Shown here: positions 6,893-9,318 of the stretch, in pieces
How positions within the stretch are numbered: the first letter of the stretch is position 1
Layout: each line of letters begins with the position of its first letter
NCBI GenBank assembly: GCA_011389655.1
Contig: JAABTX010000027.1
Coordinates: 1-34,862 of the forward strand
DNA length: 34,862 bases
Direction: 5' to 3'
DNA from: Thioalkalivibrio sp.
Lineage (GTDB): Bacteria; Pseudomonadota; Gammaproteobacteria; Ectothiorhodospirales; Ectothiorhodospiraceae
Notes under the pieces: generated by a model
Databases searched by the model: none
Seen by the model: the letters and a program-made list of their open reading frames with translations, nothing else
Told to the model about the DNA's origin: nothing
Position numbers and translations under genes: made by a program

Positions 6893-7006
6893 GGCCGGCC
6901 GCGTGTGGCATGAAACTTGGATACCGCTGGTGGAAGACCCGGCGGTCCTGCCGGTGAACCCCGGCGCACGACCGGCGTGACGCGGTCCCTGTCCTGGAAC
7001 AATCCG

Positions 7007-8233
7007 ATGCAGACATCAGCACTCCCGACAAACCTGCCCTCCCAGCTGCTGCAGGCCCTGGATGACCTCGGCGTCGCGCCACAGGGGCGGGACGGGGCGC
7101 CCGGGGGCGATTTCTGGACCCGGCTGGCGGCGCAGCTGGAGCAGCTGGAGGCGGTCGCCGCGGCCCTGCCGGAGGACGTCTCGGTCGAGGATCTGACGCC
7201 CCTGCTGGCGGCGGAGCTCGGCGGCGATGGGCTGCCGGAAGACGGCAGCGCGTTGCCGCTTCCACCGGGTCTCGGGCTGGAGTCCGACCTGTTGCAGCCG
7301 GATTCGATCGCGGGGGGCGAGGGCACCCATCCCCTCGAGCTGCTGGCGGCGGCCCTGCACGCGGCCGCCGCCGGTCGCCCGGCCGCGGCCGGCGAAGGCA
7401 CCGGCGACGACCTGGCCGCGCTTCGGGCCCGGCTCGGCGAGATGCTCGCCGGACTGCAGGGTGGGTCCGCGGCGCCGCCCGTGGACGCGCGGCCAGCTGC
7501 GGCGGCGCCATTCTCCCTCCTGCCGGGGGTCGTGACCGGCGGTCCGGGCACCGAGACGGCGGCGGGACCGCTGCCCGGATTCTCCGCGCTGTTCGCGGAC
7601 GCGCGCCTGCCCGATGCCGCGCTTGCCGCGGGGCTGCCGGGTGCCGGCGCCGGCGACGCCGCCTCCATGCGCGGCCTGCTCGAGGCGCGGCTTGCGGATG
7701 CCGGACCGCAGGCGGCATCGACCGCGGGGATCACGACCGCCCCGGGCGATGCCGCCACCGGCAGTCAGCCCGGATCGGCCAGCGCCCCCGGCGCCCGGAT
7801 CTTCCATGTGGATGTGCCGCTCCAGCAGCCCGGCTGGGACCGGGCACTCGGCAACGGGATCCGCTGGATGGTCAACCAGAACCTGCAGGCCGCGGAGCTG
7901 AAGCTCAGCCCGCCCCACCTCGGACCGCTGGAGGTCCGCCTGCAGGTGGACGGCGATCGCACGCACCTGAACATCATCGCGCCCCAGGCGACGACGCGCG
8001 AGGCGGTGGAGGCGGCGTTGCCGCGGCTGCGCGAGATGTTCGCCGAGAGCGGCCTGAACCTCGGCGACGTGAATGTCAGCGAGGACGGCAGGGAGCGGGG
8101 GGGCACCGACGGCAGCCGCGGGCACGGGGCGCAGTTGCCCGGCACAGCGGACGGCAGCGCCGGGGAAGCGGATGCCGGCGCAACCCGGTCCGGGCCCCCG
8201 GCTGTCCAGGGTCTGGTCGACTACTACGCCTGA
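7007..8233 (+). CDS. fliK: Flagellar hook-length control protein FliK
   Basis: 408 residues from the ATG at 7007. An upstream GTG at 6977 is in frame but gives a less typical N-terminus. FliK measures hook length and switches FlhB export specificity. The N-terminal two thirds are low-complexity (A, G, P, L), expected for the ruler part. The C-terminal domain (about residues 270-370) has the conserved FliK pattern: W..AL...I.WM, then LQAAELKLSPPHLGPLEVRL and EALPRLREMFAESGLNLGDV. The tail after it is Gly/Ser/Asp-rich. It is the last gene of the fliE-fliK block and is followed by a long non-coding interval. Confidence 0.92.
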   Translation: MQTSALPTNLPSQLLQALDDLGVAPQGRDGAPGGDFWTRLAAQLEQLEAVAAALPEDVSVEDLTPLLAAELGGDGLPEDGSALPLPPGLGLESDLLQPDSIAGGEGTHPLELLAAALHAAAAGRPAAAGEGTGDDLAALRARLGEMLAGLQGGSAAPPVDARPAAAAPFSLLPGVVTGGPGTETAAGPLPGFSALFADARLPDAALAAGLPGAGAGDAASMRGLLEARLADAGPQAASTAGITTAPGDAATGSQPGSASAPGARIFHVDVPLQQPGWDRALGNGIRWMVNQNLQAAELKLSPPHLGPLEVRLQVDGDRTHLNIIAPQATTREAVEAALPRLREMFAESGLNLGDVNVSEDGRERGGTDGSRGHGAQLPGTADGSAGEADAGATRSGPPAVQGLVDYYA

Positions 8234-8237
8234 TTTC

Positions 8238-8265
8238 CCCCCTCCCCCGCAAGCGGGGGAGGGGG
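8238..8265. repeat. 13-bp perfect inverted repeat after fliK
   Basis: CCCCCTCCCCCGC at 8238-8250 pairs exactly with GCGGGGGAGGGGG at 8253-8265, leaving AA between. A transcript would form a very stable hairpin 4 bases after the fliK stop, which could end or pause transcription or protect the fliK 3' end. There is no T-run after it, so it is not a classical intrinsic terminator. The following GTCGGGGTGAGGG resembles sequence that flanks such palindromes in many proteobacterial genomes, so a dispersed REP-like element is likely. Confidence 0.6.
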
Positions 8266-8381
8266 TCCATCGTCGGGGTGAGGGCCGGCGCATTGCGGTC
8301 TGGGGCCGAGGGCGTCGGACCGCTCTTGCGACCGGGGGTCCGTGGGTCGAGTGGCGTCCCGGTGCGGTCCCCCGCGGGTGT

Positions 8382-8589
8382 CGGCAGCAGGGATGCTGCC
8401 GTCAAGCCTACAGGGAGGTATTCACGGCGTCCCGCGGGGGGGCCGCAACGGGACGCTGCGACAGCGCCTGGCGGGCCCGCACGCCCAGCGTGGCCCGCAC
8501 CGAGTCGCAAATCTTTCCTCCGGTGTCCGGAGGCCTGCCTTCGTGGCAGGAGGCGAGCCTCCTGCAGGGCAAGGCGGCCGCAAGCCGCC
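8382..8589. repeat. Cluster of six further hairpins
   Basis: Perfect inverted repeats lie at 8382-8389/8394-8401 (8 bp), 8427-8434/8449-8456 (8 bp), 8471-8477/8492-8498 (7 bp), 8517-8523/8527-8533 (7 bp), 8534-8539/8545-8550 (6 bp) and 8573-8578/8584-8589 (6 bp). An alternative 9-bp pairing at 8546-8554/8557-8565 overlaps the fifth. The dense back-to-back layout suggests stacked extragenic repeats or a structured RNA; nothing indicates protein coding. Confidence 0.55.
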
Positions 8590-8722
8590 GCACTCCATAG
8601 GCTTGCGCTTGCATGCCCCGGGGCACTGCAGCGACTCCACGCCACGCGCCGGCATTCCGGCACCCGCCCCGGCCGGCGCCCGTCAAAACCTCGACGGACG
8701 GCTTGGATTGATCCGCCATCCA

Positions 8723-8735
8723 TCTGAAAAACAAT
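8723..8735 (+). promoter_or_regulatory. Second copy of the 13-nt flagellar upstream motif
   Basis: TCTGAAAAACAAT, identical to 1086-1098, ends 23 bases before the TGGCACG element of the fliL promoter. Both copies are followed by GCC after zero or one base. It could be an activator or bending site, but the protein is unknown. Confidence 0.4.
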
Positions 8736-8758
8736 GCCAATCCTCCTATCCGAGTGAC

Positions 8759-8774
8759 TGGCACGTCATTTGCT
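8759..8774 (+). promoter_or_regulatory. Sigma-54 (RpoN) promoter of the fliL operon
   Basis: TGGCACG at 8759-8765, four bases, then TTGCT at 8770-8774 gives the exact GG-N10-GC geometry and a full match to the -24/-12 consensus. The expected transcription start is near 8785, about 24 bases before the fliL ATG. Middle flagellar genes are sigma-54-dependent in polar-flagellate gammaproteobacteria, and a sigma-54 activator (FleR) is encoded at the left end of this window. Confidence 0.9.
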
Positions 8775-8801
8775 CCACCCCTTGCAGTGTAGAAGGGGTG
8801 G
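8775..8801. promoter_or_regulatory. 9-bp palindrome between the sigma-54 promoter and the fliL start
   Basis: CCACCCCTT (8775-8783) and AAGGGGTGG (8793-8801) are perfect inverted repeats with a 9-base spacer. The right arm abuts the fliL ribosome binding site (GGAG at 8801-8804). The left arm lies just upstream of the predicted sigma-54 start, so it would be present only in read-through RNA from upstream, where the hairpin could mask the site. It could equally be a DNA operator. Confidence 0.5.
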
Positions 8802-8808
8802 GAGCGAC

Positions 8809-9318
8809 ATGGCGGAAAAAGACGATCTGAACCTGGCCGAGGGCACGGAGGCGGCGCAACCGAAGGGCAGGGCGCTGAAGTGGGTGGTGGTGATCCTGGT
8901 GGTGGTTCTGCTGGGCGGCGGCACCGTCGGCGGTGTCCTCTATTTCGCCCTCGGCGGCGACCAGGAGCTGGCCGATCCGGCCGCCGCGGAGACCAAGCGG
9001 CCGCTGGTCTACAAGGCCCTCGAGCCGGAGCTGCTCGGCAACATCGAGGGACCGGGGCGCATCCGCTTCGTGCAGGTGGGCGTGGTGATGGCGCTGCGCG
9101 ATCCGAAGGCGATGGAGGCGGTGGATCAGCACAGCCCGATGATCCGGAACGACCTGATCATGTTGCTCAGCGGCAAGAACTACGAGCAGCTCAACAGCGC
9201 GGAGGGCAAGGAGCAGACGCGCCAGGAGATGCTCGAGACGATCCGGGCCGTACTCGAGCGCAGCACCGGGGATCCCGGGGTCGAGTCGATCTACTTCACC
9301 TCCTTCGTGATGCAGTGA
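8809..9318 (+). CDS. fliL: Flagellar basal body-associated protein FliL
   Basis: 169 residues from the ATG at 8809, which follows GGAG; an earlier in-frame start at 8770 falls inside the promoter and is rejected. FliL is a single-pass inner-membrane protein that rings the stator and supports torque. A short cytoplasmic N-terminus precedes one transmembrane helix (about residues 25-46, VVVILVVVLLGGGTVGGVLY), then a periplasmic domain with the family pattern RFVQVGVVMALRDPKAMEAV and a C-terminal ESIYFTSFVMQ. It is the first gene of the sigma-54-driven fliLMNOPQR-flhB unit and lies 7 bases before fliM. Confidence 0.95.
   Translation: MAEKDDLNLAEGTEAAQPKGRALKWVVVILVVVLLGGGTVGGVLYFALGGDQELADPAAAETKRPLVYKALEPELLGNIEGPGRIRFVQVGVVMALRDPKAMEAVDQHSPMIRNDLIMLLSGKNYEQLNSAEGKEQTRQEMLETIRAVLERSTGDPGVESIYFTSFVMQ

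Follow-up and report, generated by a model that had tools for sequence, protein, structure and literature searches.

A sigma-54 promoter with a perfect palindrome abutting it lies before the flagellar gene fliL on a 34.9-kb contig of a gammaproteobacterial genome; the whole contig is subsequently called the window, and its nearest named records are Thioalkalivibrio MAGs. As the best single account of this arrangement, with a probability of roughly 0.48 and on the basis of modelled RNA folds, we consider a translational lock against RNA reading through from upstream, restricted to certain lineages and quick to turn over. Some RNA would enter from the upstream fliE-fliK run or from stray upstream starts and carry the 5' arm of a hairpin that may block ribosomes at fliL, while RNA begun at approximately 8785 would be devoid of the 5' arm and expose an open ribosome site; the use of such an arrangement would be to tie production of fliL and of the genes that follow it to the firing of the fliL promoter alone. 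An initial annotation of this DNA had read promoter and palindrome as a possible transcript-specific translation switch. The presence of the two abutting elements is confirmed; in favour of the switch itself stand the predicted contrast between masked and open RNA and the recurrence of the arrangement at fliL, but the nearest relatives are without the palindrome and show no excess of covariation.

Promoter, palindrome and predicted stem

The genome comprises 3.46 Mb on 367 contigs. On the plus strand of the window, a flagellar cluster extends from a sigma-54 activator near the contig start through fliE, fliF, fliG, fliH, fliI and fliK to fliL, fliM, fliN, fliO and export genes. The last gene of the upstream fliE-fliK run is fliK (6917-8233, plus strand, PF02120), and the fliL-fliM-fliN-fliO run is headed by fliL (8809-9318, plus strand, 169 aa; FliL PF03748, E=4e-25), the ATG of which at 8809 has been matched in relatives and the likely Shine-Dalgarno of which, as judged by sequence, is GGGAG at 8800-8804 of the same strand, in a region of 70% GC around the start. 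The activator gene at the contig start (19-1077), probably cut short, encodes Sigma54_activat and HTH_8 domains with FlbD as the best NCBIfam model at 377.7 bits, below the cut-off of 750; by these domains it is a candidate for the enhancer-binding activator of sigma-54 promoters in this genome.

The promoter TGGCACGTCATTTGCT at 8759-8774 of the plus strand has the exact -24/-12 consensus with its GG and GC dinucleotides at consensus spacing and, as the initial annotation had stated, is without a single mismatch, being the sole zero-mismatch match to TGGCACN5TTGCW in the window and one of four exact matches genome-wide. By convention, transcription is expected to start 12 nt past the C of the -12 element, at 8785 on the plus strand. 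A sequence search for a sigma-70 promoter at the site found none. A looser sigma-54 pattern occurs at most 130 nt upstream of the fliL ATG in 60 of 76 related loci, the 60 having been obtained from an input of 79 after 3 duplicates and 16 loci without a pair of start and promoter had been set aside. Upstream of the promoter by 77 nt, the 14-mer GTCAAAACCTCGAC (8682-8695, plus strand), a possible enhancer site, agrees with 9 of the 13 specified letters of the FleQ consensus GTCaNTAAAtTGAC reported in excerpts of PMC6120874. The FleQ domain PF06490 had no match on the 367 contigs of this genome (G000), and the site is therefore named FleQ-box-like only, with FleQ as its named binder being rejected. 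In 27 of the 60 fliL loci, a count taken without shuffled control, GTCAA precedes the promoter start by 64-78 nt; at this distance it is mostly missing in other lineages of the genus such as L020, L028-L033 and L095.

The palindrome, a perfect 9-bp inverted repeat with CCACCCCTT at 8775-8783 and AAGGGGTGG at 8793-8801 around a 9-nt loop, adjoins the promoter end (8774/8775) on one side and overlaps the Shine-Dalgarno by 2 nt on the other, in agreement with the earlier statement that it touches the ribosome binding site of fliL. The pair of arms has a single occurrence in the genome even at 2 mismatches, by which the palindrome as a repeated operator is rejected. Repeats of 9 bp alone are common, with 27 perfect ones of at least 9 bp and a loop of 3-30 in the window and an average of 13.4 of this class in 10 dinucleotide shuffles of the window. 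The repeat is, on the other hand, the core of a longer imperfect stem predicted to consist of 20 pairs with two 1-nt bulges at 8800 and 8808, the 5' arm of which (8764-8783, plus strand) lies wholly upstream of the expected start and the 3' arm of which (8793-8814, plus strand) covers the Shine-Dalgarno and the start codon. In this fold the letters of the promoter spacer and the -12 element, which equally constitute the outer 5' arm, are predicted to pair with Shine-Dalgarno and start codon. The fold of 8770-8815 has a z of -2.76, reached by 1 of 200 shuffles, and that of 8755-8850 a z of -2.20, reached by 3 of 200; when the upstream DNA was shuffled 100 times with the letters of the promoter left in place, masking of the ribosome site had p=0.020.

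Folding of both transcript versions, which had been proposed as a check, predicts masked upstream-started RNA and open RNA from 8785 (24.0 versus 6.3 kcal/mol), and for this predicted start the whole left arm would be excluded from promoter-made RNA as had been claimed. When opening cost is taken as the predicted energy to open the ribosome site from -14 to +5 and the RNA ends at 8845, the cost is 24.0, 21.1 and 16.8 kcal/mol for starts at 8759, 8770 and 8775, and 8.5, 6.5 and 6.3 kcal/mol for starts at 8778, 8780 and 8785. As costs fall from 16.8 to 6.5, the step, from 8775 to 8780, lies upstream of the expected sigma-54 start, and the site is predicted to be open for all starts tested from 8780 to 8790. 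Extension of the RNA to 8900 narrows the contrast and smooths the step (14.8, 10.0, 7.4 and 5.6 kcal/mol for starts at 8759, 8770, 8775 and 8785), and far-upstream starts at 8234, 8380, 8500 and 8600 leave the site closed at 24.0 to 28.1 kcal/mol with both RNA ends.

Relatives, genus and controls

All five nearest relatives (L035-L039) have kept the promoter, 49-52 nt before the ATG, and none of them has kept the 9-bp palindrome in the six-row alignment. The annotation had named such a loss as evidence against the switch; the repeat is gone, but masking partly remains. Its excess over shuffled upstream DNA is 8.9 kcal/mol in the window, 6.1 in L037, 3.7 in L036, 2.4 in L035, 1.4 in L039 and 0.6 in L038, that is, from moderate in L037 down to nearly none in L038 and L039. 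Although 14 to 16 of the 20 pairs of the window's stem are kept in these relatives, part of the outer pairing is dictated by the promoter and the start codon. Compensatory changes in the arms, the presence of which had equally been suggested for inspection, did not materialize beyond control, with one pair changed on both sides, a level reached by 354 of 500 shuffles. Conservation in the alignment was rejected as support: the window's stem leaves 79.2% of cells paired, a share attained in 27 of 500 shuffles, but 8 of 20 pairs are invariant and covariation is at control level. Had the nearest relatives been the sole evidence, the switch would count as unsupported.

Three other fliL loci of this Thioalkalivibrio-type genus, from two lineages (L020, L101 and L102), share the arrangement but have unrelated letters. 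In L020, the stem CCCGTTGTG/CACAACGGG has its left arm at -8 to +1, a loop of 24 nt and a right arm that touches the Shine-Dalgarno, and the site is predicted to open only near the expected start, at costs of 16.5 at -6, 12.9 at -3 and 9.7 at 0. In L101, the promoter TGGCACCGGGATTGC pairs with GCAACCCGG and a TGTCA that runs into the ATG. From promoter to ATG, L102 has 5 differences to L101 over 57 bases, among them a change of position 9 from G to C together with position 44 from C to G, which keeps the pair in the register of L101, while the own best fold of L102 has a slid register at that pair. In both loci the leader is predicted to fold almost entirely into a single long hairpin, the outer stem of which is formed by the promoter core and encloses an inner stem. 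L030, L032 and L105 are weaker cases.

In the shuffle test over the 60 fliL loci, 8 had p<=0.05 with approximately 3 expected and a median of 0.43; five of the 8 belong to the genus and three (L065, L072, L075) do not. Outside the genus, an excess of about 5 kcal/mol is attained at L072 and L023, and one of 8 kcal/mol at no locus. An early test with swapped upstream halves over the 60 loci gave p=0.03 with the window's close clade and 0.15 without it. Performed on 21 genus loci, the swap test favoured native pairs by 2.24 kcal/mol (permutation p=0.0007), and on 48 loci outside the genus the difference was -0.10 kcal/mol (p=0.63); due to this null result the claim is limited to the genus and a family-wide claim is rejected. 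The genus set consists of the strongest FliL match per genome, whereby of 30 genomes 7 without FliL match, G019 (a fragment) and L031 (from G001, a duplicate from promoter to ATG) are not included. Nine genus loci were added after the 60-locus run, and L039, left out of that run as a duplicate of L038, is kept among the 21.

A masking excess of at least 5 kcal/mol is present in 8 of the 21 genus loci (8 of 20 without L039), and of at least 8 kcal/mol in 4, namely the window, L020, L101 and L102. Among 220 intergenic gene starts, drawn from 338 found by a rough ORF caller in stretches of eight genus genomes, 5 reach the lower and 2 the higher threshold with a virtual start 24 nt before the ATG, and 5 and 0 with one at 40 nt. 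This agrees with a smaller first control of 29 gene starts, of which 1 had at least 6 kcal/mol with the virtual start at 24 nt, 0 with that at 40 nt and none at least 8. Neither threshold is reached by any of 32 further sigma-54 promoters from the genus, which include several orthologues and were picked from 40 places among the matches listed and from other loci, with a start found for each; their genes, as judged from the first residues, are presumably flgB, fliE, pilA and a cheY-like gene, besides four unnamed sets that are recurring or resemble secreted proteins. Furthermore, when the site is shifted by 60 to 220 nt relative to these fliL starts, 4 of the 210 resulting positions have at least 5 and 1 has at least 8 kcal/mol, so that the placing on the ribosome site looks specific. 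Shuffling was uneven between these controls, as all upstream letters were shuffled for gene starts and displaced sites, while the -24/-12 letters were fixed for promoters. RNA from the expected start of genus fliL loci is no more folded than that of control genes (mean 7.3 versus 8.8 and 9.0).

When the genus loci are grouped into seven clusters, which we drew on the FliL tree, a rank test of the cluster means against the 220 controls gives p=5e-5, or 3e-4 without the window's cluster, and clusters with at least 5 kcal/mol number 3 of 7 (binomial p=0.0004), or 2 of 6 without the window's cluster (p=0.007). Masking measure and genus grouping behind these values were chosen after the window had been seen, with the same data having suggested the idea and given the figures. 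In the midpoint-rooted tree, the six-row clade of the window groups with L011-L014 and L024 of other genera, which are free of excess, and stands apart from the other 15 genus rows; the genus is therefore not one branch with respect to fliL. Any constraint would equally be loose, since 13 of the 21 loci remain below 5 kcal/mol, including near neighbours of positive loci (L100; L033 near L030; L105). It is possible, although with somewhat less than even chances, that the sigma-54 promoter doubles as an anti-Shine-Dalgarno element with complementarity under selection, and that locks with different arms arose separately in three lineages or more (window, L020 and L101/L102), while being absent or lost elsewhere. 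As the arms turn over quickly, what would be kept in part of the genus is their complementarity and placing and not their letters.

Alternative explanations

That a C-rich stretch after the -12 element just happens to match the G-rich ribosome site without any function is a serious, if unlikely, explanation, in line with the commonness of 9-bp repeats (27 in the window), the loss of the repeat in all five nearest relatives with covariation no better than control, the missing swap signal outside the genus and the 2 of 220 gene starts which also reach 8 kcal/mol. Such a coincidence would, however, have to happen again at the fliL loci L020 and L101/L102, the arms of which are unrelated, and is at odds with the cluster-level p of 3e-4 (rank) or 0.007 (binomial) obtained without the window's cluster and with 0 of 32 at other sigma-54 promoters. 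As the fliE-fliK RNA must end somewhere and the gap behind fliK holds hairpin repeats, the stem might alternatively be a 3'-end or processing hairpin of this RNA, as a stabiliser, RNase site or weak terminator, that overlaps the fliL site incidentally. We hold this for improbable considering that no T-run follows the stem, that a strong hairpin (8238-8265) is already located after the fliK stop and that displaced sites are rarely in excess (4 of 210).

The operator that the initial annotation had offered as its alternative, a DNA dyad that spans the transcription start and either binds a dimeric protein or is extruded as a cruciform, retains the perfect dyad around +4 and an antisense excess at least as large as the sense excess in the window (10.5 versus 8.9 kcal/mol) and L020 (13.6 versus 10.3 kcal/mol). 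It is the less favoured reading, given that lineages have wholly different arms and unequal spacing, with a loop of 9 nt in the window versus 24 nt in L020; together with the one genome occurrence at up to 2 mismatches, this makes the dyad quite improbable. Over the 21 loci, the mean sense excess slightly surpasses the antisense excess (3.69 versus 2.55, p=0.027), and with the antisense excess being larger in window and L020, RNA is only weakly favoured over DNA. Template switching at quasi-palindromes is a known mutational process, which perfects them by paired changes without selection. A by-product of this kind would account for the paired difference that separates L101 from L102, but would favour neither the ribosome site over displaced sites nor fliL over other promoters, and is judged most improbable.

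Known systems and the surroundings of fliL

Transposase genes of the IS10/IS50/IS200 type resemble the proposed translational lock in that transcripts arriving from outside have the ribosome site folded and those from the own promoter do not; these are mobile elements, however, the arms of which are terminal repeats, and nothing of the kind is found at fliL. In Salmonella, flgM is a flagellar gene translated differently from class 2 and class 3 transcripts depending on the promoter, but in contrast to fliL is not known to have a sigma-54 promoter or an arm inside the downstream promoter. The closest likeness is with gene e, the lysozyme gene of phage T4, where, according to excerpts of PMC3014915, the ribosome site is folded away in the longer early RNA but left open in RNA from late promoters, which lie within the 5' strand; a 100-fold effect is reported, and soc, 49 and I-TevI are named alongside gene e. 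As in that description, upstream-started RNA at fliL would hide Shine-Dalgarno and/or AUG and a promoter in the 5' strand would free them: in the modelled folds, Shine-Dalgarno and AUG lie in a stable helix and the promoter's own RNA is without the 5' arm. Of this structure, the 9-bp core is lost in 5 of the 5 nearest relatives, with analogous stems of other letters in L020, L101 and L102. Unlike the late promoters and the lysis gene so described for T4, the locus is situated on a bacterial chromosome with a sigma-54 flagellar promoter and is known by prediction alone, and promoter elements form part of the arm, most extensively in L101.

For Pseudomonas, excerpts of PMC6120874 describe activation of the fliLMNOPQ operon by FleQ, with the FleQ consensus matched at fliL, and equally call this consensus unreliable in the strain investigated. 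These excerpts contain no ribosome-site hairpin in their account of fliL and FleQ, and PF06490 was not found in the present genome. Within the portions of open-licence literature retrieved by a limited set of search terms, no comparable ribosome-site hairpin was found, either for fliL or for flagellar promoters of the sigma-54 class. If true, a chromosomal operon would be shielded from neighbouring transcription without a terminator, with the promoter itself as the lock, and the output of fliL and the genes behind would follow the fliL promoter only, regardless of the fliE-fliK run. Locks of this type would escape searches by motif or covariation, since their sequence is not kept; the opening-energy test with swapped upstream halves could serve to look for them at other internal promoters.

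At 575 nt, the gap between fliK and fliL, which lie on the same strand, is longer in the window than in four near relatives (263-323 nt), a difference that may be due to REP-like repeats. Two families of such dispersed repeats occupy 8374-8500 and 8522-8624, and a query with 8234-8680 has 46 match places in the genome among the matches listed, itself included. Directly after the fliK stop, a 12-bp perfect hairpin CCCCCTCCCCCG/CGGGGGAGGGGG (8238-8265, plus strand) is a dispersed repeat without T-run, the core of which has 14 genomic matches with up to 1 mismatch, itself included. An intrinsic terminator, that is, a G+C-rich hairpin with a T-run, was not found in 8150-8900, a stretch that includes the fliK-fliL gap of the window. 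The corresponding gaps of L101 and L102 (194 and 210 nt) are the shortest of 19 genus loci measured and have no T-tailed hairpin. The gap of L037 contains two hairpins of the 8238-8265 kind, each followed by a T-run.
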